Below, in pieces: positions 1 through 55,000 of a stretch of DNA of 64,000 nt (its first letter is position 1; every line of letters begins with the position of its first letter). The position numbers were made by a program, and so were the translations under genes. The notes beneath the pieces are model-generated. The model saw nothing but the letters and a program-made list of their open reading frames with translations. It was not told the DNA's origin and ran no database searches. The stretch is from Sphaerolaimus hirsutus (Eukaryota > Nematoda > Chromadorea > Monhysterida > Sphaerolaimidae). The stretch lies in assembly GCA_964036195.1 (NCBI GenBank), contig OZ038456.1, positions 7,998,001 through 8,062,000 of the forward strand, given 5' to 3'.

Positions 1-361
1 GAGTTATTCGAGGGGGGACTTAATCGAGGATATACGGTAGTTTGTGTAGCGATGGACGTTGATATGTCCAAATATACTCTACTTGGACACAATGATTACC
101 GCTGTTGGGTGTATAAAAGCGTATAAAAATACTCTTTACTATGAGTTTCGTGAAAATTGTTGATGAAATAATAACCCCCTCCTCGAATAAGCCTCCCTCG
201 AAAAACTAAATATAAACAACTATGAAATAAATACAAAAAGAATTACTGCAAATTGTAATTTCCCCAGAATGCATGTTGCTTTGTGTTAATAAAAGTCAAA
301 ACTTTTGTGTAAAGTAAAGTTAAATTTAGGTAGATTCCAAGCACTGCAAACCACTTTCAAC

Positions 362-459
362 CTTTTAAGCCTATTAGGTCCACTACAAAGGGTTTAGGTT
401 CTCCTTCTTTTCCTGGTACAGATGTTTTTTCAGTCCAGATTGATGTAGTAGCATCATAT
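362..459 (-). pseudogene. Orphan duplicate of kelch exon k13
   Basis: Identical in sequence and splice signals to 8,589-8,686, but lies beyond the kelch stop codon at 6,994 on the same strand. It is carried by the left copy of the long direct repeat. It may be unused, or part of a partial second kelch copy continuing left of the window. Confidence 0.75.
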
Positions 460-470
460 CTGCATATTTA

Positions 471-2910
471 ATTGAGGCGTCTACTTCTAAAAGTCGACAA
501 GTCCAAAATATGAAAATTTCGAGTTAGGCCCTGGAAACGTCATCTGGGGCTACTTCCGCACATTTCTTATCATTTTCCATAAAAATTTTCGACCTCACAT
601 GCCCATATGGCAAAGTGCCAAATTTGACATTTTTTGAGAAAAATGCAAAAATTTCGCGCAAGAAGTCGACAAGTCCATTCCTCCGCTTCCTTTTGTTTGG
701 GAAAAATAGCAAGAAATGTGATATGTCCACTATGGACAGTTACTTCTAAAAGTCGATAAGTGCATCAATTGCCCATAAGGCAGCCTCGGCTTCCCCGGGA
801 ACAAAAATGTTTGTTAGTGCAAGAAGTCGACAAGTCCACTTCCCTCCCAAAAACAGTTTTGCTCTGACCGAATGGAAATTTATGGAAACCCAATTTTTCA
901 CATAAAGGTTGAGAGCACGGGCTGAAAATTTGACACTTCTCTGTCAACATATGGAACTTAATGGAAAGCATGAGAGAGCCAAATTGGACACGCACCACGG
1001 GTAGGGCTCGAAACTCTATTTTTTTCAAACTCGAGTTCGAGTCGCAACCCAAAAAAATTTCCGGTCGAGTCGGCGAGTCGAGTAGAGCAAGTCTGTGAAA
1101 AGTCGAGTCGAGTCAGGCAAAAATCTCGAGTCTCGAGTCGAGTCGGATACGTTACTTTTAAACATGACGCTTGCAAATAGAATTTCAGATACTGGTTGCT
1201 CTACCAATGTTTTCACACGCACTTAATTCAGTCTAAATGCCAACAGTTCATTTTAATATCAAAATAAAGGGAAATATAAGTTTCATGTTCACTTTCTTGA
1301 TGTTGCAACAAAAAAAATTGAAAAAATCAAACCAGCCTAGTGATGGAAATACAACATCTTTTAATGATCTGGTTTTTATAATTAAAAAAAACAATGATTT
1401 TTTAGAAAAACCATTGAAAAATGCCATTTGTAAACCACCTGGTAAATTACATGTAATACCAATGCCAATTGGAAAGCAACTTGGAAAGCAACCAGGGATT
1501 TATCCAATATTTTTGAAAGGGAGTGTTTGTTTACCCTCTGTAATGGTGAATGAATCACAGCAAAAAATTGATTAGTGAAGCATGTGGTAGTGGGCTGGAT
1601 GCGCGTGAAGTGGTGGCACTTCCACATGCTTCACCAATCATGATGGTTGGTGAAGTGTGCTGAAGTGTGTGGAAGCATGTGGAAGCTTCACGCACATCCA
1701 GCCCATTTCCACGCGCTTCACAAATTCATTTTTCCTGTGAATGGTGGGGGCTCGCTTAGCGACACACAAATTTTACATACACAAATGGATTCATTACACT
1801 GGCCACTTCATAGGCACCATTGGCAATAAGAAGCTTGAGTTCAAACATCATTCAATACATACACTCCCGGAAAAATGTCTTTATCCTCCTGATCGGGAAC
1901 AAAAAAATTCAATGTCTCCCCTGCTAATGTGATACCTGTGTCGGGATATACACGGGATGAATTCTTGTAGAGTAAGGTGCCTTAATGCCACATGTCGATT
2001 TTTAGGTTTCTGGGTGCTCTGCTGCTCGTTTGGCAGCGATCCAAAGTCAAATTTCTGGTGGAAAAAAGTCTTTATCCCTTATACTAAAACGTTAAAACAA
2101 AGAAGAAAACATGGTGAAACAATGAAAAAGACGATGCTATGTAAAAAAACAATGCACTGCTCAAATATTTATCACTTTGCCAATTTGTATTCAAAATGGT
2201 ATACGCAGTGGACCTGATACTCTGCACTCGCATTGATTTCGCATCATGTTCAAAATCCTCTGCCGTCGGTTGGCAGACAAATATCGACCCGGCATGGTTC
2301 ATATTTTTGCACTTATAAACAAAACGAAATGTTGGCACCGTGCCAGCTCACGACTGCGCGCATTAAGCAAAATGTAAAAAAGCAAGAAGAAATCGCGGAA
2401 GGCACTGCTTTCACGGTTAACGATATATTGCCTATATACGCACTAGGGGGGCCATACTTCTAGTATGGGTGGTTGACATAATTACCCTCCGTATGTATGA
2501 GTTTCACCCCTCAGTGACCCATATTTTATGTTTGGTTCACCATTGAACCAAAAAAATCAAAGGGATAAAGACGTTTTTCTAGGAGTGTATGCCAATGCAA
2601 TTGATTTTATATCATGCACATGGCGTGGATATGCGTGCCTGTGTGCAAAAATTGTGAAAAATTTGTTTATAAATTGATTTCAAAATTGATATTTTTGGAC
2701 AAGATTGAAGGGGGAACCCCGACTCGAAATTTTCCAAAATTTCGAGTCGAGTCGGGCAAAAACCTCTAGTCTCGAGTCTGGGCCATATTTTTCCGCTCGA
2801 GTCGGCCGAGTCGAGTCAGAACCCAGTTTTACCCTCGAAAACTTAAAATGCGATTTACTCAAAATCACATTTTGTGGACTTGTCGACTTTTAGAAGTAGA
2901 AGCTTCAATT
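471..2910. mobile_element. Composite element with AAAAGTCGACAAGTCC ends (left duplicate)
   Basis: Left end ATTGAGGCGTCTACTTC, right end mirrors it (GTCGACTTTTAGAAGTAG then AAGCTTCAAT). It contains (CGAGT)n tracts at about 1,022-1,150 and 2,720-2,840 and the TA-flanked element. Long open frames inside are AT-rich, with no domain. Duplicate at 8,698-11,137. Confidence 0.65.
1862..2587. mobile_element. TA-flanked element (Tc1/mariner-like), left duplicate
   Basis: Inverted ends CACTCCCGGAAAAATGTC and its partner GACGTTTTTCTAGGAGTG, bordered by TA on both sides. No transposase frame. Same family as 10,089-10,814 and 35,066-36,179. Confidence 0.8.
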
Positions 2911-2924
2911 GTGAATACTTATGT

Positions 2925-3118
2925 GTAACCAGTTACAGCTGTAAACCTGTAAGCCCTGTAAACTGTAAAATGTCATTTTAAGTACCCTGCAATGTGTCAT
3001 GTGTATCCAAATCTTATGGTATCATATCCAAATCTTACGTTTTGCATCCAAATCTTGCTTGTGGACATTTTAAATCATTACACTTGACAGTGTCTTTTAC
3101 AGGGTCTGGGATGCCTCC
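2925..3118. mobile_element. Introner-family MITE (left duplicate)
   Basis: Contains GCCCTGTAAACTGTAAAATG, a TATCCAAATCTTA centre and TTTTACAGGGTCTGGGATGC. An identical copy lies at 11,152-11,345. Confidence 0.75.
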
Positions 3119-3120
3119 AG

Positions 3121-3204
3121 CGCGGAAAGTGTCATTGCACTTCTGGCTCTTGCTGCCAGCCCTGACAATTTTACATCTCTAACCAATGATTTACGTTGCA
3201 TCAA
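3121..3204 (+). CDS. Candidate exon after an introner-type MITE (left duplicate)
   Basis: Follows the MITE end GATGCCTCCAG. One frame reads ESVIALLALAASPDNFTSLT and NDLRCI to a weak donor GTGAAT. The composition looks protein-like, but no family is recognised and no partner exon was found. The minus strand is also open here. Confidence 0.25.
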
Positions 3205-3598
3205 GTGAATAAGTAAATATAAGTGAATACCTTTGCTTTTGCAACCATTGTTTAAAAAAAACTAGAATTGAATTGACCCATCCCAGACCAAGTAAAATGC
3301 CCTGCAATTGTTAAATTTGATTTGATTTTTTCACGAGTCATTTGATTGACATTTTACACAGTAATTTACAGTTTGTTTGACACTTGACATTTTACACACA
3401 GCGTGACATTTTACATTTTACAAGTCATAATGTCATTTGTCCCTTTACGTGTTAAATAAAAGTTAAGTTATCACTAAACAGAACAGACATAAACACATTT
3501 ATTTACACAACACAATAATCATCTACAAACGTGAATACTTGCTACCCAAAACTATCACGTAGTTGTATCAATGCCAACCAAAAACAAAAAAAACACAC

Positions 3599-6993: not shown

Positions 6994-7052
6994 TCAAGGA
7001 GAAAATCGCACAAATGAATTCTTGTATGCTGCATTGACAAGTGGAGCTTCAG
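6994..7052 (-). CDS. Kelch gene exon k15 (stop)
   Basis: Acceptor GGGACTGCTCCCAG is the other end of the MITE intron. Encodes EAPLVNAAYKNSFVRFSP and TGA at 6,994-6,996, closing the last blade. Confidence 0.85.
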
Positions 7053-10000
7053 CTGGGAGCAGTCCCAGACCCTGTAAAATGCCCTGCAAAATGTCTGATG
7101 TCTAATGTCATGCAAATTGTCTAAAGTCATGTAAAATTCCCTTGCAAAATGGTAACCGAGTTGCCATTTTGCATGGCATTTTACATGACTTTTGACATTT
7201 AACATCACATTTGAACTTTTTACAGGGCATTTTACAGGTTCTGGGACTGGCACCTGTTGTCCAGACATCACCATCAATATCATATACCAACGATATGCTT
7301 GCATTGACTGTACTACCGACCACATGCAGTTGCCCTGTATTTGTGGTTTCATGTGTTTCAATGTTTAGCCTAACTGGTGTGCAGAATATTTTTTACCATA
7401 AATCTCTGAATTTTTCATCAGACTTTCATCAGAAGGGAGGATTATTCAAAGGATTTTTTACATGAACTTTTCATGGATTTTGTTAAATCCTGATGGAACA
7501 ATAAAACATTTCGGGTTAACAACCCCTATCTAATTTTGCTGGCAAACTAATAGCCTATTGAGGTATTTTGTGTTAAATATACTTTGTACACTTTTTCAAA
7601 GTATTTGTGTACATAAAATATATTTTATAGTACTAATTCAAGATATCGCATTTCCTCGAAATACCCCCAGGGGTTTTTATTTTTAGCGTGGAAATTTTGA
7701 GAAAAGAAAAGAAAACGCTTTTAAATGCACAAAACCGGTAATAATTTGACCAAATATAGTATATAGGGACAACGTAAACATAGAACGCTAGACAAACTAG
7801 CGTACCGTATTTCCTTGAAATACCACCCCCTTGAATTACCCCCATCGAAATTTGCATCGCAGCTACACATATACTACCGTCTATCCTCGAATAAGTCCCC
7901 CGGACAGTTATTTTTTCGTCAGAAGTTTTTGAGGGGGGACTTATTCGAGGGGGGGAGTTATTCGAGGGGGGAGTTATTTTTTCGTCAGAATATTAAGTAA
8001 AATGCATGATCGATATATCGTATGAATAGGGTTGAATTCATGCAATGAAATCAATCCTAGTGAACATTACCTGCAAAAAATACATGGCTTTTAACGAAAA
8101 CGCCCATAAAAACGTCTTTTATACATAGGTGTCTTTGTCACCCATTATAGAGGAGGGAGTTATTCGAGGGGGGGGGGAGTTATTTTTCCCTCAGTCTGCT
8201 AACAGGGGGGAGTTATTCGAGGGGGTGGAGTTATTCGAGGGGGGACTTAATCGAGGATATACGGTAGTTTGTGTAGCGATGGACGTTGATATGTCCAAAT
8301 ATACTCTACTTGGACACAATGATTACCGCTGTTGGGTGTATAAAAGCGTATAAAAATACTCTTTACTATGAGTTTCGTGAAAATTGTTGATGAAATAATA
8401 ACCCCCTCCTCGAATAAGCCTCCCTCGAAAAACTAAATATAAACAACTATGAAATAAATACAAAAAGAATTACTGCAAATTGTAATTTCCCCAGAATGCA
8501 TGTTGCTTTGTGTTAATAAAAGTCAAAACTTTTGTGTAAAGTAAAGTTAAATTTAGGTAGATTCCAAGCACTGCAAACCACTTTCAACCTTTTAAGCCTA
8601 TTAGGTCCACTACAAAGGGTTTAGGTTCTCCTTCTTTTCCTGGTACAGATGTTTTTTCAGTCCAGATTGATGTAGTAGCATCATATCTGCATATTTAATT
8701 GAGGCGTCTACTTCTAAAAGTCGACAAGTCCAAAATATGAAAATTTCGAGTTAGGCCCTGGAAACGTCATCTGGGGCTACTTCCGCACATTTCTTATCAT
8801 TTTCCATAAAAATTTTCGACCTCACATGCCCATATGGCAAAGTGCCAAATTTGACATTTTTTGAGAAAAATGCAAAAATTTCGCGCAAGAAGTCGACAAG
8901 TCCATTCCTCCGCTTCCTTTTGTTTGGGAAAAATAGCAAGAAATGTGATATGTCCACTATGGACAGTTACTTCTAAAAGTCGATAAGTGCATCAATTGCC
9001 CATAAGGCAGCCTCGGCTTCCCCGGGAACAAAAATGTTTGTTAGTGCAAGAAGTCGACAAGTCCACTTCCCTCCCAAAAACAGTTTTGCTCTGACCGAAT
9101 GGAAATTTATGGAAACCCAATTTTTCACATAAAGGTTGAGAGCACGGGCTGAAAATTTGACACTTCTCTGTCAACATATGGAACTTAATGGAAAGCATGA
9201 GAGAGCCAAATTGGACACGCACCACGGGTAGGGCTCGAAACTCTATTTTTTTCAAACTCGAGTTCGAGTCGCAACCCAAAAAAATTTCCGGTCGAGTCGG
9301 CGAGTCGAGTAGAGCAAGTCTGTGAAAAGTCGAGTCGAGTCAGGCAAAAATCTCGAGTCTCGAGTCGAGTCGGATACGTTACTTTTAAACATGACGCTTG
9401 CAAATAGAATTTCAGATACTGGTTGCTCTACCAATGTTTTCACACGCACTTAATTCAGTCTAAATGCCAACAGTTCATTTTAATATCAAAATAAAGGGAA
9501 ATATAAGTTTCATGTTCACTTTCTTGATGTTGCAACAAAAAAAATTGAAAAAATCAAACCAGCCTAGTGATGGAAATACAACATCTTTTAATGATCTGGT
9601 TTTTATAATTAAAAAAAACAATGATTTTTTAGAAAAACCATTGAAAAATGCCATTTGTAAACCACCTGGTAAATTACATGTAATACCAATGCCAATTGGA
9701 AAGCAACTTGGAAAGCAACCAGGGATTTATCCAATATTTTTGAAAGGGAGTGTTTGTTTACCCTCTGTAATGGTGAATGAATCACAGCAAAAAATTGATT
9801 AGTGAAGCATGTGGTAGTGGGCTGGATGCGCGTGAAGTGGTGGCACTTCCACATGCTTCACCAATCATGATGGTTGGTGAAGTGTGCTGAAGTGTGTGGA
9901 AGCATGTGGAAGCTTCACGCACATCCAGCCCATTTCCACGCGCTTCACAAATTCATTTTTCCTGTGAATGGTGGGGGCTCGCTTAGCGACACACAAATTT

Positions 10001-13000
10001 TACATACACAAATGGATTCATTACACTGGCCACTTCATAGGCACCATTGGCAATAAGAAGCTTGAGTTCAAACATCATTCAATACATACACTCCCGGAAA
10101 AATGTCTTTATCCTCCTGATCGGGAACAAAAAAATTCAATGTCTCCCCTGCTAATGTGATACCTGTGTCGGGATATACACGGGATGAATTCTTGTAGAGT
10201 AAGGTGCCTTAATGCCACATGTCGATTTTTAGGTTTCTGGGTGCTCTGCTGCTCGTTTGGCAGCGATCCAAAGTCAAATTTCTGGTGGAAAAAAGTCTTT
10301 ATCCCTTATACTAAAACGTTAAAACAAAGAAGAAAACATGGTGAAACAATGAAAAAGACGATGCTATGTAAAAAAACAATGCACTGCTCAAATATTTATC
10401 ACTTTGCCAATTTGTATTCAAAATGGTATACGCAGTGGACCTGATACTCTGCACTCGCATTGATTTCGCATCATGTTCAAAATCCTCTGCCGTCGGTTGG
10501 CAGACAAATATCGACCCGGCATGGTTCATATTTTTGCACTTATAAACAAAACGAAATGTTGGCACCGTGCCAGCTCACGACTGCGCGCATTAAGCAAAAT
10601 GTAAAAAAGCAAGAAGAAATCGCGGAAGGCACTGCTTTCACGGTTAACGATATATTGCCTATATACGCACTAGGGGGGCCATACTTCTAGTATGGGTGGT
10701 TGACATAATTACCCTCCGTATGTATGAGTTTCACCCCTCAGTGACCCATATTTTATGTTTGGTTCACCATTGAACCAAAAAAATCAAAGGGATAAAGACG
10801 TTTTTCTAGGAGTGTATGCCAATGCAATTGATTTTATATCATGCACATGGCGTGGATATGCGTGCCTGTGTGCAAAAATTGTGAAAAATTTGTTTATAAA
10901 TTGATTTCAAAATTGATATTTTTGGACAAGATTGAAGGGGGAACCCCGACTCGAAATTTTCCAAAATTTCGAGTCGAGTCGGGCAAAAACCTCTAGTCTC
11001 GAGTCTGGGCCATATTTTTCCGCTCGAGTCGGCCGAGTCGAGTCAGAACCCAGTTTTACCCTCGAAAACTTAAAATGCGATTTACTCAAAATCACATTTT
11101 GTGGACTTGTCGACTTTTAGAAGTAGAAGCTTCAATTGTGAATACTTATTTGTAACCAGTTACAGCTGTAAACCTGTAAGCCCTGTAAACTGTAAAATGT
11201 CATTTTAAGTACCCTGCAATGTGTCATGTGTATCCAAATCTTATGGTATCATATCCAAATCTTACGTTTTGCATCCAAATCTTGCTTGTGGACATTTTAA
11301 ATCATTACACTTGACAGTGTCTTTTACAGGGTCTGGGATGCCTCCAGCGCGGAAAGTGTCATTGCACTTCTGGCTCTTGCTGCCAGCCCTGACAATTTTA
11401 CATCTCTAACCAATGATTTACGTTGCATCAAGTGAATAAGTAAATATAAGTGAATACCTTTGCTTTTGCAACCATTGTTTAAAAAAAACTAGAATTGAAT
11501 TGACCCATCCCAGACCAAGTAAAATGCCCTGCAATTGTTAAATTTGATTTGATTTTTTCACGAGTCATTTGATTGACATTTTACACAGTAATTTACAGTT
11601 TGTTTGACACTTGACATTTTACACGGTCTGGGAGCGCCCTACGGACTAGTGATGCTAAAGCACCATGGCGCTGTCGCCTGCGCTCGCGCCAACGCCAAAA
11701 GCGCAATTTTGGCGCTTACCGTATTTCTCCATTTGAACACCTTCCCGATCAAGTCCGGCCCCCTATTTTTATTTTCACCTCGCATGCCCTATCTCCGGTT
11801 GTGGGAGGAGTGGAAAGCTAATGTTTGTGGGGTATATAGGTGCAACCCCCCACTACCCCTCATGAAGAAATAGGGCAGCGGCGACTCATTATAGAGGGGG
11901 TCGCTGTATACGTGAAAAAAATTTGCGGCATTTTCTGTGTCCCGCACAGGTCCGGCCCCCAGTTTTTTTCTTATGCTACCGCTTGAAAAAGGGGCGTCAG
12001 ACGCCAATAACGCCACAGGAAAATGGCGCTAAGTGGTAATGAACTTCTCAAATGGTGCCAGTGCCATGGCGCCATTCCGTCACTAATCCCAATGCCTCAA
12101 TATTTTTTCCCTATATCAAACCTTTAATTTTAAAAGGCTTTTTCGCTTTTTTTTGTGACAAACTTTAGGTTTAGGGTGTATTATATAGGGTTTAGGGTGT
12201 TTTATAGAGGAAGGTTTAATGTTCCAAGTTGCGTAACTAACTATACCCCAAAAATGCCTCCATTTGAAAATTTAGTTTGGGTTAATTCAAAATAGAAAAT
12301 TTTGACAATTTTTGTTCCTGTTATGGTGTAATTTTGACATCATAAAGTTCAACCCAAGTAAATTTTCTAACGGAGGCGTTTTAGAGGTAAAGTTTTTTAC
12401 ACAGCTTGGAACCTTATACCCCCCTCTTAAAAACATCCTAAACCGGCGTGTGAAGTGTGTACAAAAATAAAAGCAAAACGTGCAGTTTTACATTTGCAAA
12501 GTTCATTTTCTTGTCTGCTGCTTAGGGGGTGGGTGTTTGTGGAATGTTTGGCCATGACACTGGCACCATTTCAGGTAGCCAAGCGGTGCCACGCCAGGGG
12601 ACCTATTTCCTGTGGTGTTATTGGCGCCTGACGCTTCTTTTTCAAGCTGTAGCGCAAGAAATAAACTGGGGGCCGGACCTGTGTGGGACAGTGAAAACGC
12701 TGCAAATTTTTTCACATATATGGCAACCCCCTCTAAAATGAGACACCGCTGCCCCATTTATTCATGAGGGGTAGTGGGGGCTTGCACCTATATACCCCAC
12801 AAGTATTACCTTTCCACCCCTCCCACAACCGGGGATAGGGCGTACAAAGTGAAAATAAAAAGAGGGCCGGACTTGATCGGGAAGGTGTTTATAACACCCC
12901 GGTGTTATACAATATCGGAGCAATTTTCAGCGATCTTTTTCAAAACATGTATAACACCTGGGTGTTAGGTCAAGGGGGGTGTTTTACATGGGAACTTCAT

Positions 13001-16000
13001 TAAAAAAGTAACAAACATAAACACGATGATAATAGCACTTAATTAACATTGTAAAATGACTTTTTATATTAAGATGGTAGCAATAGCACTAAATAAACAT
13101 TATATCTACCTACCGTATGACCTCGAAATTCCCCCATGGGGGTTTATTATTTCGCCAGCAAATTTTGAGGGGGGGGTTAATTCGAGGGGGGTTATTCGAG
13201 GGGGGTCTATTATTTCGCCAGAAATTTTACAAAATTTCCCGTACTCAGACGTAGAAAAACACAAGATTGTCAGAGGCGTATGAGTGTTTATAGGCATATA
13301 CTACCAGAGTTGTGAAAGTGTATTTACACTTACCTGAAATACCTGGGTAAATGGGTATTTATATTTACACTTACACTTTCATAAAATACCCATATACTTT
13401 TTTTACACTTTCCTGAGCAAAAAACGCGGGTACAGAAAGTGTATTTTTTTCTTTCAGATGGCCCTGCTTTATGCTTTTGAGAAAGCATAAAATAGGGTCA
13501 TGTAGAAAAAATAACTGCACAGTGCACACATGCAGTTATGCATTGAATGTAGAAGTTATGGAAAATGTACGAACTAGGCTTTGATCTCCAACTTTTGATC
13601 AGTACTCATGGTATTCTCAAGTTTCATCATACCTTTGTAAAAAGGACAAGATCAATGGAAATTCACCAGCTGGACACAAAGTCAACTTTTGCATTGACAT
13701 TTGCTGCGTGTTCATTCTTGCATTTAAACAGTGTGTATCACATTGCTTTATCAGTAAATTACCAACACTGAAAGTGACATTATTAGAGAACTTCATACCA
13801 CTACAGTATTTGTTACAGTCTGAAATGTTTCATAAAAGGCAGTAAAATGTGAAATAATGCATGAAAATGACAAATAAATTGATCTAAAGGTGAAAACGGT
13901 GGTGTTTTTTAATGTTCAACAGTGAGAGCTCTTTCTAAAAAATTTTTTTTACACTTACCGTATTTCTCCGTTTATAACACCCGGGGGTTATACAAGATCG
14001 GAGCAATTTTCAGTGTACTTTTTTAAAACTTGTATAACACCCGGGTGTAGGTCAATGGGGGTGCTATACATGGACAAATTTCAAACAGCAAAAAACAGCA
14101 AAATAAGTGCATAGAAATTCCGTGTTTTTTCATTGTCTAAATACAAACGTCTCTACATATTTTTTTGGTTCCCGCGTGCAACTAATTCAATGGAAAAAAA
14201 TGTGCGTGCGCGCCGTAATTACAATGAGTGGCGCCACACACAATATTTAAACCATTCAATTCGAGCCGTTTTTTGAAACCTTTTATAGCACCCCCGGGGT
14301 TCTATAAAACTATATAACACCCCGGGTGTTATGCTCGGGGGGGTGCTATAAACGGAGAAATACGGTACACTTTTTTTACACTTTCCTAGGTATTTTTAAA
14401 ATACCTTACACTTTTGGTATCCATACTCAAAATTTGGAAAGTGTATTTACACTTACACTTACACTTTCCAAAAATACCGGTATTTTAACAACTCTGTATA
14501 CTACTGTATATACACATAAACCTTTCCTTAACATCACTCAGTCATCGGTTTTAACGTGTGTTCTGCATAATACAGTTCAATTGTGGTATTTGTTGTGTAC
14601 ATGCTGTTTACACTGTATTTGGGGGGGGGGTATTTCGAGGGAAGGGTTTATTATTTCCCCAGCCCATTTTGAGGGGGGGTTAATTCGAGGGGGGGTTAAT
14701 TCAAGGGGGGATAATTCGAGGTAATACGGCATTACTTTTGTAATAAGTGGTGGAAAAGCGCAAGAAAAAATGGTCCCTGCATATTTTTTGGTTCCTTGCG
14801 CGCAGCTAATTCAAATGGAAAAATGTGCGTGCGACGGAATTATGAGTGGCGCCATGCACAATATTTGAATTTGTTTAATTCTAGCCTAGCCAATTATTAT
14901 ACAATGTTTTTTTTAAAGATAGCATAGCACCCCTGGGGTGCTATGAAATTGTGTAGCACCCCGGGTGTTATGCACGGGGGATGCTATAAACGGAGAAATA
15001 CGGTAGTGCTATCTTGCTGTGGCGTCACAAGCCACAGAACTCACAAACAGGGGTTTCGAATATCTTGGCCCTCGCGGTGGCTGGATAGATAGCAAATCGC
15101 TCCTCCGGAGGGATAGATAGCTGAAAAATTTTCTGGGGGGGGGTCGCGGGCATAGGGGATTTTCTGAGTAGCATTTTGGGGGGGGGGGGGGGGGGGTCCG
15201 CCAAAGTTCGCATGGCTATAACTTTGCAACCACTTGGCGAAATGTGACGAAAATTTTACATAATGAGATTTCAGGTCGGGGCAATATAGAAAATCGAAAT
15301 CGACGTTATACGACCCCCCTGACCCGAGATAGGGGGGGGTCTATAAAAAGACTCATTTTTCGATTTTTTTCGCTGTCGCCCCGAACACGCGAACTTTGAA
15401 TGTCAATAACTCCGTCATTTCACGGCCGATTTTGTTCATTTAACTTCTAAAATGAAGAAAAATCTTTGGAGATTCCATTTTTGAGGTCATTTTGGTGATG
15501 TACAGTTGCGGTCATATCGATTTGACCCAATTTCTGAATGCCAAATTTTGAGCAAAATTTTTTTTTTGAACATGCTATCATACACTCTTGGTCGAGAGAA
15601 ACATCATTAAAAAAAATTAAGTCGATATCTCTTTCCGATCAAAAGTTATGGCGCTTCAAACTTTTCCCTCCCATCCACATAATAACCACATGCATGCAAA
15701 TTCAAAACTCCATATCTTGGCCATTTCTCAGCCGATTTTCACTGATGAACACTTAAAATGATCAGAATAACATGTAGATATCATTTTTAGGACCAGATTA
15801 TCCGTATATTTCAGCAGATTTCCAATACAAGAAAATAATGCGAACTCTTGAATTAAATTGCCATAATGAAAATGCATACAAATAAACTGTAGATAAAAAT
15901 TATATCTACATGTTATTCCGATCATTTTAAGTGTTCATCAGTGAAAATTGGCTGAGAAATGGCCAAGATATGGAGTTTTGAATTTGCATGCATGTGGTTA

Positions 16001-19000
16001 TTATGTGGATGGGAGGGAAAAGTTTGAAGAGATATCGACTTAATTTTTTTTTTATGTTGTTTTTATCGACCAAGAGTATAAATATGATAGCATGTCCAAA
16101 AAAAAAATTGCTCAAAATTTGGCATTCAGAAATTGTGTCAAATCGATATGACCGCAACTGTACATCACCAAAATGACATCAAAAATGGAATCTCCAAAAA
16201 ATTTTCTTCATTTTAGAAGTTAAACAAACAAAATCGGCCGTGAAATGACGGAGTTATTGACATTCAAAGTTTGCGTGTTCGGGGCAACAGCGAAAAAAAA
16301 TCGAAAAATGGGTCTTTTTATAGACCCCCCCTATCTCGGGTCAGGGGGGTCGTATAAAGTCGATTTCGATTTTCAATACCGCCCCGACCTGAAACCTCAT
16401 TATGTAAAATTTTCGTCACATTTCGCCAAGTGGTTGCAAAGTTATAGCCATGCGAACTTTGGCGGACCCCCCCCCCCCCCCAAAATGCTACCCAGAAAAT
16501 CCCCTATAGTCGCGGGGCAACATATAAGTTTTATCAATGCATAGAAGGCAGAAAGGGGAAAAATCGCTTAAAACTGGTTAAAAGTAGCCAAAATAAGCTA
16601 AAAGTGGCTAAAAATAGGGTATATAAACATGTGTATAGGCAAAACCTGTGATTTTGTATGTGAAAAAGCACAAAACGGTATGGAAATTAACGCTTTTGAG
16701 CAAAAATTGGGGCAAAATTTCTCAAAAATCCATCCAGATCGGTCGGTAGCTGAGCGATTTGGGGGGGGGGGCTCAAGGGTTAGTAACCAAAAAAAATGCC
16801 GCAGGATTGGTAGATAGCCGAGCAGCCCCAGGGATAGATAGATAGCTGGCGGATTTGGGGGGGGGAGACCCACCCCCCAGCCCCCCCCCCTAGGAGACCC
16901 CTGCCCACAAACGTTTTCCGATTACTCAAAACAGAAAAACCAATTAATTGCCAATAATTTCAAACTTACTCATAAATAGTGTAACCAGCTGAAACAGCGA
17001 TTACATAAATTTTATTGTTTAATGTCACCGCTCTGGTGAAGATGCCTTCAGCTACTGGAAAGTCAGCTTCTCTTATCCATGTAGTGAGATTCTTGTCCAC
17101 TGACCAAACTTCACTGGACTGAAATTGGTAAAAGTGAAGTGAAAATAAATTCCTGGCCCAAGATTTTATTAAAAAGGCACATTTCTGCCATCGCAGCCCT
17201 GGAACTGATACCCCCCCCCCCCAACTGGTACAAAAGGTCACCAATTATGTCTTCTCATTTTGTTTGCTTTAAACTTTTTACTTGCCATTTTACTTTACAT
17301 TGTACTTCTCACTTCTCAACTAGTGTTTTACTTCTCCACTTGCAGAATTGACCACTTGTTCGCTCTATCATTGTATATACCGTATTTCCTCGAAAAACCC
17401 CCCCGGGGGGTGATTGTTTCATAGTGCTCCCGAGAGGGGGGGGGGGTTAAACGAGGGGGGGGGGTATTATTTCGCGAGAAATTTTTTGAAATGGTAGTAC
17501 AGAATCGTTGTTTGTGATGTGCGCTGGGGTAGACAAATGCATCAATAACTGACAGTCAGATTTACTGCTGTGAGTTACCGTATTTCCTCGAATTACCCCC
17601 GGGGGGTTTATTTTTTCAGAGTGAAAATTTTTAGAGAAAAACGTGAAAAATGCAAGAATAACCACCATTTATAAGTTTTTACAGCCTTATTATATAAGGA
17701 TGTAGATTGTAAAAACGATGTTCTAACGTAACACAGTAAGTGTTTAGAACGTCGGTTATGTATTTCCCGGACCACAAATACATAGTGCCCATTTTGAGGA
17801 GGGTATTTCGAGGGGGGCGGTATTTCGAGGAAATACGATATGTCATATTTTGTAAACCACCCAAAATTTGGAGTAAATTTGAAAATTTGAACTTGAAATG
17901 TAAATAACTTCCTAACGGTGCCTCGCAGGGCAAAACCAGATAATCGCAGATAACACCACTGAAAAGCCCTTTTCGAAAAGTACGCAAACCTCAATTTTCA
18001 GATCTATATTTATACCCGTACTCGATTTATAGAGCAAAATATTTTTGGAAATTCACGTATGAACTTTTGGAAATGAAACTTTATTTTGTATGTGAAATCC
18101 GGCCAGCTCTTCGCGAGCGATCCGGAGCACGCGTGCACTTTTGGAAATGAAACTATTTTTTGGACTTGTGAACTTATGAAATAAAACTCCTGTGGTCTGG
18201 GATGGATATGTGAACTTTCGACGTGAAACTTCTGTTTTTCATAGGGGATTTGAGATGGATATGTGAACTTTCGATATGAAAATTGTGATTTTTCTGAAAA
18301 TCGGTACCATTGTATCTCAGGAACGAAATGGACCATAATGCTGATTTTTTTTCTAAAATGTGAAAAACTATACGTGGAGGTCGAATCCACGCTTAACTCG
18401 ATTTTTCTGGATTTGGCGCTTGTGAACACTGGAATGGAACTCCCCATGTATAGACTCCTGTATAGGGCTCGAAACTCGATTTTTTTCAAACTCGAGTTCG
18501 AGTCGCAACCCCAAAATTTTTCCGGTCGAGTCGGCGAGTCGAGTCGGGTGAGTCAGTGAAAATTCGAGTCGAGTCAGGCAAAAATCTCGAGTCTCGAGTC
18601 GAGTCGGATGCAATACTTTTTTGCATCATTCTGTCAGAAATTTCAGGTACTGGTTTCTCTACCGATTTTCTCACACACACTTTATGAAGTCTAAATTATT
18701 TTTCAGAGTGGAAATTTTGAGGGGGGTAGTTTGAGGGGGGTTTCTTATTCCGCCAGAAATTTTCGTTAAGATTGTAGTAAAGAATGGGCCTTTACATACC
18801 CAAAACTGGTAAAAAACATGACTAAATAGGTTATATAAGGACATATCAACAACGTACATTACTACACAAATCAGGCGTGTAGCGGCGGTGCAAATTGGCC
18901 TCTATTAATACATCATGTATATTGCATACATGATGTACCTGATGATGATATTCCAGATGGGGTACTTCGAGGGGGGGGGGGGGTATTTTTTCCTCAGCTC

Positions 19001-22000
19001 AGAAACACATGGGGGTATTTCGAGGGGGTTTAATTCAAGGGGGTATTTCAAGGAAATACAGTATCATGCACATGGTGTGGAAATGTACACTTGTGCGCAA
19101 ATTTTTTGAAAAATATGTTTAAAAATTCATATCAAAACTGAAATTTTTGGACATTTTTCAATGGGAACCCCGACTCGAATTTTGCCAAAATTTCAAGTCG
19201 AGTCGGGCAAAAACCTCGAGTCTCGAGTCAGGGGCAGATTTTTCCGGTCGAGTCGGGCGAGTCGAGTCGGTACCCAATTTTACCCTCGAGTCACGAGTCG
19301 AGTCGAGTCGAGTCGAGTTCGAGCCCTACTCCTGTATACTAATATTAGTATGTAGGTAGATGGTATAAACACTGCTCTCACGTGATTCCAACATTGTTTA
19401 AACCTGTGTTCTGCACTATGCAGAACACAAACTGCAGTATTTGTCATGTAAATACGTTCTCTTTACACTCAATCTGGGGGGGGGTATTTCGAGGGGGGGG
19501 GGTTGTTTCATAGTGGTCCCAAGAGGGGGGGTCAAACGAGGGGGGGGCATTTCGAGGAAATACGGTATTATACACTACCGTGCAGAATAGTTGAGACTTT
19601 TCACACATAGAGAAACAGTAGGCTAAGGGTCCACCACACTTTTTTGCTTCCCAATTTCTTGTCCCTCGCCCAATTTTGATGCCGTTTGAGTATGTTGGGG
19701 TTTGATGCTGGGGCTACTACGAAATTTTTTTGTTTGCTCTAATAATCCCCCAGGCCCGAGATAAGAAAGGTCTATAAAAAGATGGTCAATAAATATACAA
19801 AAAAATGGGCAATTGGGATGAGTGTCTTTGAAGCTTGATAACTCAACCATTTCTGGGGTGATTTGAATCATTCAACACCTAAAATGATTGGGACAACCTG
19901 CAGATTCTATTTTTGTGGTCGGTTTAATGATGTCTAAATTCTGTATGTCAATTTGACCCAGTTTTTGAACATGAAAAATATTTTTTTTGAACATGCTATC
20001 ATATACTTTAGACAACGAGGATTCATTTAAAACCAAAATGAGTTCAATATCTTTTTCCAATCAAAAGTTATGGCACTTCAAAGTTTTCAATGGTGTTCAA
20101 ATATTCTATGCTTATTTTACTGGAATTTGCAGCTTGAAAATTTTGTTATTGAACAGTCTATAAAATACTTTAGACAGAGAGAATTTATATGACAAAAACG
20201 TTTTTTCAATATCTCTTTCCAATCAAAAGTCATAGCACTTACAAACTTCCATCTTCATTCCATATAAAATAAATGCACATTACTCATTCACAGTTGGGCC
20301 AAATTTTCTCCCTAATTGAGCAAAGACAAAACCTCAAACTTACACACCAAATAGCCCCACTCAGTAGTATGCCTACCCCCGTTTCTGAGTTGCTGGCAAT
20401 AGATGCAAAACTGCAGCAAAAATAAAAAAATGCCACATTTTCATATATGCATTGCCATATGCTGTTCATGCTTAGAATGTTTCTTGCTGCACACAGAGCT
20501 CAGCGATGCAGGCAAGCAGTTGCCATGGTGAAATTTTTGTTAAAAAATGAACATAGGAATTGGATATAGACTTTAAAGTGAGATACTGGGTGGCTACTGC
20601 CCAAAACACGAAAAGTCTCAACTATTCTGAAACATGAACAAACTGAGTTAATATGTTTGTACACTAAGAATATATGCATATTTGAACTTGAGGGGCGGTC
20701 ATCCCGGGCATGTGTAGTCAACCCCCCAGAGTACCCATGTATAGTATCCAAATGTTTTGCATATCAACCATTTCGAAATTCTGGCAACATTAATCACGCA
20801 GCGCAAAAAGTCTCAACTATTCTGCATGGTAATGTACTAGTGGTGTTATCTGACCTTCAGTCAGTTTTCATAGCATTTACACTTTTGCACTTCAATGGAA
20901 ATTCTCAAAATCAATAGAAATTCCTAAATCAGTCAATATAAATGGGATCAGTACCGCAAATAGAGAAGTAAAAAATCATTTGAGAAGTGAGAAGTAAAAT
21001 GAGAAGTGAAATGGCAAGTAAAATGGGAGAAGTGATGAAAAATGAGAAGTGAGGAGTGAAGGCTGAAGCGACAGGTAAAAGTTAAAACCAAACAAATGGC
21101 AAGTTTTAAAATACCGGATTTCCTTGAAATACCCCCAGGGGGTTTATTTTTCCGCGTGGAAATTTTGAGGGGAATTTCGAGGGGGGGGTAGGCTTTTTCG
21201 AGGGGGGTATTATTCCGTGTGATCGCGCACAAGAAGGCACCCAAGGACAATATCTATGGGATGATATTTTTTAATTTAAGTAAGTTAAAACTCACTTGGG
21301 TTGCACTGGGTACAAGGCGACCACCAAAAAAGTAGACCCTTTGATTAAAAAGTGTCCCACCATTATGGACTGGACTTCTTTCGCGCGAAACGCCAGTGAA
21401 TGGTCCCCTTGCACAGTTGAATGATTTATGTTTATGTCCACCCAAACACACAAAAAGCTATTTTAAAGTCACTTTGATATGTAATATTGATTGAATATAA
21501 CATTTATGTATCTTGACACTTCTAGAAACTTCAATACATAATACCTCATGACCAGGGTTGGCAAAATCCCAGAAAAAAATAAAAATTAAATGGAAAATTT
21601 AAGAAGAAAATAAAATAAAATTAAATGGAAAATTTCAAAATAAAAATAAAAATAGTATAAAAATTCAAATTTTTGTAAAATTATTGTAAAATTGTATACA
21701 AATTCATATTTTTGTGAAAATTGTATAAAAATTCATCTTTGTTTGTAAATTTTTTTATTGTGTTGCTTGGGGTTCAACCTGTTTATTTGTGGAACTGGGG
21801 CAGTTCCAAGCCCTATAACGTGTCAAATGTCATATGAAATGTCATGCAAAGTGTCAATTGTCATGACAAATATAAATTAAAGTGGCAACTGTCAAGCAAA
21901 TCATATCCAAATCTTATTTTTTGTATCCAAATCGTGATGTTGTTTTTGTATCAAATATTATGTGAACATTTGGATACAAAAATTTAAGATTTGGATACCA

Positions 22001-34000: not shown

Positions 34001-37000
34001 CTCTTTTCAATTTCCACACTGCATGCAGGATTTATCATTACTGTATTTCTTCTAATAGAAGAGCGCCGTTCAATTTTTTTCATCAACTTTTTTACCTGCC
34101 GTTCTATTAGAGGTGCCGTTCTATTGGAGGCTGCCGTTCTATTTTTTCACCAATTATTTCACACACTTCTCATTTCGAAATAGCGTTTTTTTAATGAAGC
34201 ATGAGCAATATTTTTATATCAGAGCATCAATTTCAGATGTAAGACCTATTTGAATGCTTCGCATGTTATCATCATCCATTTTTGATTCATTTTTGTGTTC
34301 CTTTTGGCACACTCCCAACGTAATTACTACCTGCCGTTCTATTGGAGGTGCCGTCCAATTGGAGGCTGCCATTCTATTGTTTTCGTGAGTGCAAAAATGT
34401 GCCAAAACCTGCCGCTTTTTGGAGGTGCCATTCTATTAAGGTGTGCCATTATATTAGAAGAAATACGGTGGTTGCTTTGGCATATGTATTGAATGATGTC
34501 TAATTTCAAGTTTCTTATTGCTATACAATTATACAGAATGAAACCAGTGTTGTTAAAATACTGGTATTTTTAGAAAACGTAAATGTAAACGTAAATACCT
34601 TTTCCAAAAAAAAGGATAAATACAAATACATAAGGTATTTTTTAAATAGCAAGGAATACGTATAAAAAATGTAAACGTAAAAAATAAAATATGTTGATGG
34701 CTGCTCGCCAGAAGCATCTTGTATTTTATATCTGCTGTTAAATCGTCCAAGTCAATCAAGTTCTGACTTTGTGCTGTTGACAGCCGCCCTGTCATCGTCA
34801 GAATTCATCGCCAAAACATATTTTAAATGGCAAAGTGGTCTACTTCACGTGTTTGGCATATGAACACATTGGCGGCCCACATACTAGTTGACACACATGT
34901 GTCAACCTGTCTAACTCACATTTCGGCTTCATGTGTTGCAGAGCGATCCCCAAATGCACATCGGCAGTTCAGCCGCGTCGACGCACATGCACTGAGAGCA
35001 AGGCGGTTCGTAAAATACACGAAACTATCCCTTAAAGTCACCGATATTGCAATATGACGTATTTACACTCCTGGAAAAATGTCTTTATCCCTTCGATTTT
35101 TTTTTGGTTCAATGGTGAACCAAACATTAAATATGGATCACTGAGAGGTGAAATCATACATAGGTGGGGTAATTATGTCGACACCCCACAGTAGAAATAT
35201 GGCCCACCTCCTGCGTATATAGTCAATACCGTATTTCTTCTAATAGAACAGCATACCTCCAATAGAGCAGCACCTCCAATAGAATGCCAGGTTTTGGTAC
35301 ATTTTTGCACTCACGAAAACAATAGAAAGGCAGCCTCCAATTGAACGGCACCTCCAATAGAACGGCAGGTAAGAATTATGTTGGGAGTGTGCCAAAACAC
35401 AAAAATGAATCAAAAATGGATGGTGATAACATGCAAAGCATTCAAATAGGTGTTTAATTTGAAATTGATGCTCTGATATAAAAATATTGCTGAAGCTTCA
35501 TTAAAAATAAAGCTATTTTGAAATGAGAAATGTGTGAAAAAATAGAACAGCAGCCTCCAATAGAACAGCCCTCTAATTGAACGGCAGGTAAAAATGTTCA
35601 CAAAAAAATTGAATGGCGCTCTTCTATTAGAAGAAATATGGTAAATCATTTACTGTGAATGCAGTGCCTTCCGCGATTTTTTCCTGCTTTTTTTTACATT
35701 TCGCTTAATGTGAGCAGTTGTGAGCTGGCATGGTGCCAACATTTCATTTTGTTCATAAATTCAAAAATAGGCACTATGTCGGGTCAATATTTGTCTGCCA
35801 ACCAATGGCAGACAATTTTGAAGATGATGCAAAATCAATATGAGTGCAGAGTATCATGTCACCTGGGTATACCATTTTGAACACAGTGATAAATATTCAA
35901 GCAGTGCATTGGTTTTTTCACATCACATCACAGTCTTTTTCATCATTTTACCAGGTTTTCTTCTTTGTTTGGATGTTTTAGCATAAGGGATAAAGACTTT
36001 TTTCCACCGGAAATGAGCAGCAAGGCACCCAGAAACCTAAAAATCGACATGTGGCGTAAAGGCACCTTTATCTACAAGAAGTCATCCAATGTATACCCCA
36101 ACATGGGTTGCACATTAGCAGGGGAGACATTGAATTTTTTGTTCCCGATCAGGAGGATAAAGACATTTTTCCAGGAGTGTATATCACTTCGATTTTGGCC
36201 CGGAAATCACGATTTCGTCATTTCTTGGCCGTCCGCCAATTCGTTCTTTTTTCGATTTTGTCGGGTGCATTACTCGCATAAGTCGCGCTTTTGTATAGTC
36301 AGGCGATCACTTTTTTCGCTTTTGTATAGTCGTGTTCACTGCCTACAACGGAAACCATGAGGGCAGCGACATAAAAGAAATGCACGAGCCGTACAAAAGC
36401 GCGACTTATGCGAGTAATGCGCCCGACACAATCGGAAAAAAAACGAGTTGGCCGAAGGCCAAGAATTGACGAAATCGTGATTTCCGTGCCAAAATAGTTT
36501 CGTGTATATCTTACGAACCGCCTTGCTCTCGGTGCATGTGCGTCGATGCGGATGAACTATAAAAAATCTATCGGGCCTACGCCCTACCCTACAAATCTGT
36601 AGGGAGTATTAAATCTGGCCCCTGGGGTCTTATTCAAGGATATTCGGTATATCACTTCCGCCTCCAGTTCAGACAACCACGTTAAGGTGACGCATGCAAA
36701 TTCAAAGGTCCATATCTAAACCATTTTTGAGCTGATTTACGCCAGCGAACACTTAAAATAATCGTCAAAATTTGGAGATTCCATTTCTGTTCCACGCACA
36801 GTCCAATCAGTATACAACAACAACTTTGACACAATCATTATGATTTATCACAAAGTCAATGACATATCCTTCAAACAATGCGCTCCTTGTGCACTGTCAC
36901 AGTGAAATGACGCTGGATTTTGTTGTACTGGGGGCACTCCCAGACCCTGTAATAGACCGTGTAAAGTGTAAAAGACCCTGTAAAATGTCATGTGTCATGT

Positions 37001-52000: not shown

Positions 52001-55000
52001 GTTATTAGAGGGTAATTTAGTCAGGAATTCGCCTGAATTTTATAAGTCATTCGCATTTTTTCAGCTTACGGATATGATGGGCATTGGTAAATCGAGAAAA
52101 GTCAAGTATCAAAAGTATTTGAGCAAACAGGATGGAGAAAGTGTGGATTGGCGGAAAAAGAAATTCCGCTCGAAAAAAGGAAAATTCGCCAAGGCCAAGT
52201 GATCATCTGCGAACGATTGTTGAGTTTTCTTTTTGTTTTTTATTTGATGTCGATTCTGCAAGTTCACCAGTCAATAACCCTCGATATCGATATTCAATAT
52301 GGAAAATGGTCGATAACCTATAAGAAAAGATTGTCCATATTCAATGTTTATTTTTTTCATCAAAATTTTCAATATCGATATTCAATGTGATATATCGTCC
52401 TTACCTACTGAACCCAGGCGGCAGTTACCCTGTAAAGTGCATAATTTCATGTAAAATGTCATACATGTGTGTCGAATGTGTTGAAAGAGATCAAAAATTC
52501 AGTAATAAAACTTGATGTAGGTGATTGACATTTTTCACGATAATTATTTGATACTTGGGCTCGGGTTCGGGACTGCCCCCTGATAACTAATTGTTTAAAA
52601 CCATTTTAATTACGTGACAATAAACGGGAACCTTTATCAATAATCACAAGTCTTACTTGTGCATGTCTACAGATGCTTAAACTACTATCATACAAAATTA
52701 GAAACACTTCACATGTATTATAATTCGAGTGTCTTTTTGCTAAAAATGGATATTTTTTGGCAGAGATCACCACTTATAATGCTACCCCATGGCTAAACAG
52801 CAATTTCACAGCTATATATACAAAACAAAACATTGCCACTTGTCTGATATATGCATGTAGACTCATAACCGAGAAGTGGGAGCTTTTGAAAAACATTCTA
52901 AAAAACCTTTTTAACAGTTTTTCAAATAAACAACTGTCTTTGAAAAAACGTTTTTTTCATCCCTACATTAGACCCAACAGTTGTTGTATATTTATCTACA
53001 TCAAAGTTTCATAGTATTCCTGTTATCCACTACAAAGTAGTGTGTGGTATTTGTGTGTGGAGCCAAAAATCAAAAGCTGAATGGTAAACAAATTCAGTTA
53101 GGTACTGAAAAATTAATTCAGAAGTGTGCACGCTGTGCCAGCAGAGAAATAAATCTGAAAAAGTTTATCTCTAGTGGAGATATTGTCATTCTGTTCTGTC
53201 ACATTCAATTCAGCTCAACACAGAAAGCATCAATTTCCAGCTCAATTAATCACTGCAATTGCTGCCGGAAACAATGCAGTGTGTGCTAGTAATTTGTTGT
53301 CAGCCATAGCTGTCCATTCGTTTGTGCCAATGTTATACTCCTCAACAGGCAACTGGGGCAGTCCCAGACTCTGCAAAATACCCTGTAAAATGTCAAATGC
53401 CATGCAAAGTGTCTAAAGGCATGGAAAATGCCCTGTATTTTTTTCAAATACCATGCAGTGTCTAAAGTTAACTGCATTTGCTATTTTACAGGGCATTTTA
53501 CATGTCTTTTAACACTTTGCATGACATTTTACATTTCTTTAGACACTTTGCATGACATTTGACATTTGAAATTTTACAGGGCATTTTACAAGGTCTGGGC
53601 TGACACCTGGCCACCATCACTGGTTGTGGGATATCCCCACCTGCCACCAAGCAAGTAGATAGTATCTGATCAAGGGCGGGTAATAACTGAATAAACTCAA
53701 GTCACTTTACAATGTACGATGTGTTGACAAATGCCATATTTATTCTAATAGAAGGGCACCCCTGTGTGTACGTTGTCCATGACCTTTTTAATCGCCGTTC
53801 TATTTCTTGCCATTTTTCAGCCAATTTTTTAATGCTTAACCAAGGTTTTCAAACTGTTAATTCACAGCTTCATCAAGTGCCTGTTCAGATAATAATTCTT
53901 AGGATTAATTCATGTAAACATCTTAAAATAGCACCAAATCAATGGACCAAAGCCACTAAATAACAGTGTCCACTGAAATTTTATGCAACTAACATAATTT
54001 CAGCAGTTTTTGACACTTTTATTGGAACATGCCTTCAATTAGAACAAATACTGTACCCAAACAAATATTTACAGTATGGAATGGGTGTGGAATTGAGGTG
54101 GATTACAACTTACCCCCACCCCCAAACCACCAGGTATTTATCCCATGAAAAATTATTTGGTTACTATCCCCTGAACCAGCCAGAAAATCAACCAACTATC
54201 TAACAAAATATTTGGGAAATTTTACCCAAATTTTTGCACAAAATCACTATTTTTCACACCTTTTTATCAATTTTCAAACAGCCATCATATAAACCAGCCA
54301 CCTACCATCAATAGCAACCATAGCTCCTTGAATGCGTTCTCGTGGGTGAGTTGCAATTACGTTCCAATCATCTGCTGTGGGATCATACCTGTGTTGTTGT
54401 GGAGAATTTTTTGTCAGTGGTATTTTAAATGTGACATTTGACAATTATTATTTACCAGTATTATTATTATTATTATTATTATTATAATACTGGTAAATAA
54501 TAATCATTATTATGTAGTTTCAACAACTGTGCCATGGGCAGGGTTGGCAAAATCTCAGGAAAAAAAAATAAATAAAAAAATTGAAAATTTAAGAATAAAA
54601 GTTCAAGTCCCTCAACAACTCCCAACTGTACCCATTTTGGAACATAAATACTACAGACATAGGCATTACACTTGCATCACATTTACAGGAAACACTTATA
54701 TGATCACATATCACATCACAACTCATTTTCAGTAATGGAAAAATTTGTTACTTCTTCTGGTTTTCATGTTTAGGTCTAATGATAACAATTTTCTTGCCTT
54801 GTATGCCAGATTCTGTTTTTTTTTGTAAAAATTTTGTACAATTTTTGTAAAATGGTGTCATTTAATTTTATTCACGACTTTTAGGAATAAAAAAAATGAA
54901 ATGAAACAAGAATAATATTGAAATAAAATACATTTTTATAAAAATTTATACAATTTGTATACAGATAATGTTTATAAAACCAACCCTGACCATGGGCATG

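Follow-up and report, generated by a model that had tools for sequence, protein, structure and literature searches.

The window, by which we mean the whole 64,000-nucleotide stretch of DNA analysed here, carries on its minus strand the last two exons of a putative kelch gene, separated by an inferred intron of 201 bp (Table 1). This intron starts with GTGCCAGTCCCAGA and ends with TCTGGGACTGCTCCCAG, and once it is left out the exons of 81 and 59 bp read QLHVVGSTVNASISLVYDIDGDVWTT^AEAPLVNAAYKNSFVRFSP (carets mark exon boundaries) in one frame to the stop, just as an earlier note on this DNA had claimed. The same note held that the intron is a MITE from splice site to splice site and that the element brings its own splice sites. 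An inverted-repeat MITE indeed fills positions 7056-7253 and provides the GT of the donor. However, since the target duplication is a CNG triplet on many copies (see below), the element proper is confined to 7056-7253, and positions 7053-7055 are the right copy of the duplicated target CAG, from which the acceptor AG is derived. The element contains two nested pairs of arms that are 91% (7060-7094 with 7215-7249) and 83% complementary (7101-7140 with 7175-7214). Folded as RNA, the intron strand forms a single hairpin of -105.6 kcal/mol (shuffle mean -44.8, z -14.3), and an equally good fold was obtained for 0 of 200 shuffled sequences. Window positions 1-3397 and 8228-11624 constitute a near-identical tandem duplication with an offset of 8227 bp and one mismatch ahead of position 3398; it doubles the last two exons together with the 201-bp intron, the second copy (L002) lying just beyond the window edge. 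Stretches rich in TCGAGGGGGG / CCCCCTCGAAT recur in the window at 7860-8250, 13130-13210, 17380-17470 and 19000-19560.

The assignment of the host to the kelch genes, also proposed earlier, agrees with kelch-like repeats upstream on the same strand, whereas the joined peptide of the last two exons has no match in Pfam even at an E value of 1. Two of three upstream stretches yield Pfam kelch matches, which lie below the curated cut-offs, and PDB kelch proteins are matched by one upstream stretch. It is assumed here that the last exons and these upstream stretches form one gene. A second intron of the same type and family (53353-53606), consisting of a 251-bp copy plus CAG and hence longer than the copy at 7056-7253, splits a kelch-like repeat. 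The stretches on its two sides join as SDTIYLLGGRWGYPTTSDGGQ^LPVEEYNIGTNEWTAMADNK. The joined peptide matches Kelch_6 over residues 2-39 across the join (E 0.006, weak and below the Pfam cut-off), KLHL3 in PDB (2e-7) and a designed kelch protein in PDB (E 3.2e-14 summed over six repeats, none of them significant singly and with one gap beside the join). Further copies of the family in the window, at 49123-49303, 50295-50481 and 36931-37500, are older and degraded; by eye, the first two look non-exonic.

Table 1. Features of the window, loci at which protein matches reach across the junction, and U2AF1-like loci. Target copies are given as left/right.
Feature	Position	Strand	Sequence or target copies	Remarks
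Inferred intron	7053..7253	-	GTGCCAGTCCC...GGGACTGCTCCCAG, 201 bp	From sequence and joined frame
Mobile element proper	7056..7253	-	Terminal inverted repeats GTGCCAGTCCCAGA / TCTGGGACTGCTCC	198 bp
Left copy of target-site duplication	7254..7256	-	CAG	Equals last 3 exon bases
Right copy of target-site duplication	7053..7055	-	CAG	Gives acceptor AG
Motif within terminal repeat	7072..7079	-	TTTTACAG	Its AG is 19 nt ahead of intron end
Upstream exon	7254..7334	-	3' end ..GTCTGGACAACAG	81 bp; preceding acceptor TACAG judged by eye
Last exon	6994..7052	-	Stop TGA	59 bp
Second introner-type intron, same family	53353..53606	-	CAG^GTGTCAGCCCAGACC...GGGACTGCCC CAG^TTGCC	254 bp
L003, UQCRC1/MPP-beta			CTG/CAG	Pfam/PDB match spans join
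L008, opsin-like			CAG/CAG	E 1.6e-4; junction close to match end; weak
L015, orexin-receptor-like			CTG/CTG	Match spans join
L016, Patched/NPC1L1-like			CTG/CTG	Match spans join
L020, C2H2 fingers				Match passes join by few residues
L025, C2H2 fingers			Right copy CGG	Match passes join by few residues
L026, EGF			CAG/CAG	Match spans join
L030, calpain			CTG/CTG	E 1.7e-4; match spans join
L037, Oscp1			CTG/CTG	Match spans join
L057, E1 dehydrogenase			CTG/CTG	E 3.2e-5; match spans join
L058, xanthine/uracil permease			CTG/CTG	Match spans join
L068, DUF4715			CAG/CAG	E 0.004; spans join; weak
L071, ATRX	C1:11095850-11096374		CGG/CGG	Match spans join
L074, AMP-binding			CTG/CAG	Match spans join
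L129, cyclin Y			CTG/CAG	Match spans join
L133, CNOT9	C1:10595725-10596202		CTG/CTG	Match spans join
U2AF1-like locus	C14:3032343-3037998 (+ C720)			Search with human U2AF1
U2AF1-like locus	C16:15183258-15191469			Search with human U2AF1

The element belongs to a large family. Its 26-base end, with up to two mismatches, has 7,367 matches (3751 + 3616) in the 348-Mb genome and 0 in the reversed control. Two base differences separate the element's ends, so that each copy can give up to two matches, which corresponds to roughly 3,700 to 7,400 copies. Aligned to the whole genome, the MITE of the earlier note thus proved to be a dispersed high-copy family. Of 40 places scored in the first genome search, one was the query, one a 100% copy at a distance of 8227 bp, and the remaining 38 had 84-88% identity on the better strand. 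GTGCCARTCCCAGACCCTGTAAAATG and CATTTTACAGGGTCTGGGACTGCYCC mark the two opposite ends of the copies, many of which have the same three bases on either flank. These flanks were compared in 86 copies with a recognisable right end, taken from 90 that were fetched among the first 100 exact places listed. The left/right pairs were CAG/CAG (31), CTG/CTG (19), CTG/CAG (9), CAG/CTG (4), CGG/CGG (3), CCG/CCG (1) and other combinations (19); identical CAG or CTG triplets were present on both sides in 50 copies, and either CAG or CTG stood at each end in 63. Read from these flanks, the target duplication is CNG, mostly CWG, and the two hallmarks of a transposon, terminal inverted repeats and a target duplication, are both present. 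A terminal AG is lacking in 50 of 97 unique sampled copies, a set in which up to 18 copies had been selected on account of a left CTG (L121-L140 being the ones selected in this way). The unbiased part of the sample stems from two contigs of the one assembly, and the 97 unique copies are a small sample of the thousands in the genome. Selection of copies required an exact 26-base end, which favours young ones.

Copies that interrupt exons were sought with a codon model seeded from human codon usage and then self-trained on sampled loci; a first model, trained on two ORFs, was discarded. Coding sequence was called across the junction for 22 of the 97 unique copies. The same call was made at none of 2000 positions drawn at random from the window and at 5 of 360 positions lying 600-1000 bp off in longer loci; this second control used 60 loci over 3 kb (L001-L018, L020-L060 and L141) and was wider than the test set. 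Scaled to the range of copy numbers, 22 of 97 extrapolates to exon-interrupting copies in numbers from several hundred to above one thousand. The GT end lay on the sense strand in 19 of the 22 (binomial p 4e-4) and on the antisense strand in three; for coding copies with non-AG ends, the figures were nine and one. When the frames of the left and the right exon were chosen independently, exact excision, that is removal of the element plus one target copy, was in phase for 25 of 29 sense copies (p 6e-9, against an expectation of one third), including 14 of 16 non-AG sense copies; three of four antisense copies were also in phase. L069, L114, L117 and L122 were out of phase. Since the codon model was partly trained on the tested loci, more weight is given to homology.

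In 17 genes the joined exons give a match to a known protein that runs over the junction, always with the GT end in sense; three of these matches are weak (L008, L068 and the kelch repeat). In these 17 exact-join matches the copies coincide to the base with inferred introns of unrelated coding genes (Table 1). Sixteen of 37 sense peptides sent to Pfam were matched at E values up to 0.01, 13 of them across the junction (L068 weakly), while the domains in L007, L067 and L104 stop short of it; 21 had no match. There was likewise no Pfam match for any of 13 antisense peptides, a smaller set than the sense one, in which antisense frames of L016, L020, L047, L060, L067 and L088 stand beside the sense frames sent for these same loci. 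Peptides were picked by codon score and not at random, and four kelch-related ones were counted apart. The introner reading put forward in the earlier note is thus supported: MITE copies with the same ends coincide with predicted introns in many unrelated genes, with exact restoration of the frame and a strong bias to the sense strand. Copies with CAG on both sides should splice best, yet in this non-random peptide sample they account for fewer junction-crossing matches (L026, the weak L008 and L068, and the kelch repeat) than copies with CTG on both sides (seven).

This last class leads to what was unexpected about the family: CTG or CGG targets predict introns that end in TG or GG, and yet exact removal restores CNOT9 and ATRX. 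The joined CNOT9 exons encode 101 amino acids that align to the human protein without a gap (E 1.3e-51); both halves lie at the same locus, and no second CNOT9 copy was found in the genome search. The join reads GCCCTG^GTGCCA...CCCCCTG^GTGAAA and so gives a GT-TG intron, and shifting the boundary did not produce a GT-AG pair. Joined ATRX likewise gives a gapless match (E 5.8e-42), and there is no second close match in the genome, where the identity of other SNF2-type matches does not exceed 57%.

That copies with CTG, CGG or CCG right ends are instead spliced at an AG elsewhere, either at the internal TTTTACAG so that 19 nt stay behind or in the next exon, appears unlikely to us but deserves serious weighing. 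An internal AG does lie near the end in the copies examined: of 118 unique copies, all classes included, 77 have the last one at a spacing of 19 nt, and in eight named non-AG loci the distance is 19 nt in seven and 9 nt in the eighth. As far as the accessible part of one study goes, human TG acceptors function only beside an AG within 28 nt, a distance also kept at the named non-AG loci (Szafranski et al., 2007; PMC2374985). Splicing at the internal AG would, however, leave a 19-nt remainder and shift the frame in CNOT9, and the same remainder breaks the frame where exact removal keeps it in 14 of 16 non-AG copies. AGs in the next exon of CNOT9 would delete residues that align gaplessly to human. 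The AG of TTTTACAG is paired in the predicted hairpin.

Another reading is that the MITE sits unspliced in exons and that the copies are gene-breaking insertions, either young polymorphisms or marks of dead genes. The family is abundant, and a heterozygous insertion can reside in an essential gene; because the assembly represents one individual, such a case is conceivable at any single locus. As a general account this reading is improbable. It does not fit the preponderance of sense copies (19 of 22 by the codon model; 17 of 17 by homology, though fewer antisense peptides were sent) or the apparent lack of a second intact CNOT9 or ATRX copy in the genome. Nor are the insertions obviously recent: copies differ from the consensus by a median of 8%, and those with CTG/CTG are as diverged (median 0.080, 26 copies) as those with CAG/CAG (0.075, 24 copies; p 0.77), so that recent insertion does not by itself account for the former.

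Sense bias and exon enrichment might also arise at the insertion step, through a preference for GC-rich, transcribed targets in fixed orientation, and not from splicing. Many flanks are indeed GC-rich, and a preference for GC and genes is described for introners elsewhere in the part of that survey at our disposal (PMC9860276). We regard this as very improbable, because it would explain neither the survival of copies in conserved genes without a second copy nor the excess of CAG at right ends. The CAG:CTG ratio amounts to 736:482 at right and 581:518 at left ends (chi-square p 2.4e-4, end counts not being fully independent). In addition, CTG/CAG copies are more diverged than CTG/CTG copies (median 0.106 versus 0.080, 9 versus 26 copies, p 0.009). 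Among unique copies CTG/CAG outnumbers CAG/CTG by 11 to 4, which falls short of significance (p 0.06) and includes CTG/CAG copies from the set picked for a left CTG. The right-end excess and the greater divergence of CTG/CAG copies together suggest a later move to AG; UQCRC1, cyclin Y and the AMP-binding gene carry such mixed pairs. It is scarcely credible that the MITE merely filled older introns whose remainder was later lost, since repeated filling to the base would be needed to bring the same element, with its 3-bp duplication, flush with exon edges in many unrelated genes.

We therefore return to the introner reading, according to which positions 7053-7253 are very probably a spliceosomal intron that arose when a non-autonomous DNA transposon inserted here. 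The MITE enters a CNG target of 3 bp, in most cases CAG or CTG, which it duplicates, as the flanks of many copies show. The GTG at the start of the element then stands directly behind the left target copy, so that the two make up the donor CNG^GTGCC, and the right target copy ends the intron, a CAG providing an ordinary ..CCCCAG^ acceptor as at 7053; both can be read directly in the sequence. The element and one target copy would finally be spliced out and the mRNA would regain its old sequence; for this step we infer splicing from the exact restoration of frame and protein in many genes. Copies in CTG or CGG targets may be spliced at exactly the corresponding position, their introns ending in TG or GG. 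First recognition could occur via the AG of TTTTACAG 19 nt upstream, the hairpin could bring the parts together and favour the element end in the second step, and some right copies may mutate from CTG to CAG over time. We consider this extension of the mechanism to non-AG ends moderately likely. The evidence also leans, slightly less firmly, towards the full picture in which the transposon created hundreds of introns or more, a large share of them with the target triplet (CTG, CGG or CCG) as their 3' end and removed exactly as GT-TG, GT-GG or GT-CG introns with the help of an AG beacon 19 nt upstream, the hairpin and possibly a diverged second U2AF1, and some maturing to AG.

The kind of host can be derived from its genes. 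COX1 on a mitochondrial contig of 14,754 bp, read at positions that we take to be conserved, uses AGA for serine, AAA for lysine and ATA for methionine, which fits genetic code 5 but neither the tunicate nor the vertebrate code. This code and the presence of neuropeptide-type receptor, EGF and LDL-receptor domains point to a bilaterian that is not a tunicate or a vertebrate, and on this evidence the introner family is that of a bilaterian animal belonging to neither group. The genome has two U2AF1-like loci, one on C14 with a near copy on the small contig C720 and one on C16 (Table 1). The C16 locus is more diverged, its RRM piece being 45% identical to human U2AF1 compared with 67% for the other. 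Assignment of the C16 locus to ZRSR2 was rejected, since its pieces are closer to human U2AF1 than to human ZRSR2. A diverged U2AF1 copy recognises non-canonical ends in Fritillaria, and extra U2AF1 genes occur elsewhere too, including a mammalian one, according to the portion of the report consulted (PMC13326754). A diverged second U2AF1 is a possible helper of non-AG splicing here and serves as a lead only, since such extra genes occur elsewhere.

A Harbinger-type transposase family of high copy number, with 163 matches to PF13359 (DDE_Tnp_4) genome-wide, is a conceivable source of mobility. Most of the matches among those listed contain four TGA triplets within the match, which probably reflects an intron inside it. 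An autonomous element would be bounded by GTGCCAGTCCC and GGGGCAGTCCC; no terminal repeats of the MITE were seen at the transposase of L141, the single 4.6-kb copy that was read, so that the link with Harbinger/NuwaI is drawn from the target duplication. The NuwaI group of PHIS/Harbinger elements, as characterized in the available part of its description, makes a 3-bp CWG target duplication and occurs mainly in animals (PMC4482050). The duplication and the animal host are shared with our MITE, whereas CGG and CCG targets occur in addition here. A NuwaI or PHIS partner would comprise a DDE_Tnp_4 transposase plus a Myb protein with the same terminal repeats. An 80-nt fold-back with 98% complementarity lies at L141:3822-3985 near the transposase copy.

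Introners of DNA-transposon type were reportedly described by Huff and colleagues in 2016. A broad survey, to judge from the sections accessible to us, found families of 5 to more than 2,000 copies each; within animals and land plants together it records introners for just two groups, the copepods and one other group of animals (Gozashti et al., 2022; PMC9860276). In the family of its Fig. 2C, which has 4-bp duplications and no inverted repeats, the donor comes from the element and the acceptor from the target duplication (PMC9860276). The family studied here resembles those introners in being a non-autonomous DNA transposon, in the sources of donor and acceptor, and in leaving the mRNA length unchanged as most families there do; it differs by its animal host, by the occurrence of both AG and non-AG right ends and, from the Fig. 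2C family, by a 3-bp CNG target and inverted repeats. Introner elements of the dinoflagellate Amoebophrya, as far as covered by the excerpts used, likewise have hairpins, short direct repeats over exon edges and many non-canonical ends; they are confirmed by RNA and have many motifs, in contrast to the single family of this study, in which the start is fixed as GT and the end is CNG (PMC7789003).

For human TG-AG tandem acceptors the passages available interpret the pair as two steps, in which the AG is recognised early and the TG is selected later, and report sole, non-tandem TG acceptors to be absent (PMC2374985). Human TG lies within 28 nt of the AG and is always an alternative site; the AG is 19 nt away here and TG would have to be the main site. 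Fritillaria borealis, on the strength of the same partial source as above, is an animal with many non-AG 3' ends and a second diverged U2AF1, as is the case here; this tunicate has AT and AC ends as well as divergent U2AF1/U2AF2 paralogues, in contrast to TG and GG ends in our family (PMC13326754). DNA-transposon introners with a target-derived splice site are thus already known. The combination found here is a variant; no CNG-target introner ending in TG was reported among the papers listed in our search of the literature on introners and non-canonical introns.

Introners are strong evidence for the origin of introns in bulk, and animal cases are few. The family described in this work seems to hold several stages within one genome: copies with non-AG ends, copies whose end has improved to CAG, and complete GT-AG introns. 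It would make the path from a transposon to a working intron testable, and with it the idea that the AG rule may be satisfied by an AG away from the intron end, and it provides conserved, identified genes in which candidate TG and GG acceptors occur naturally.
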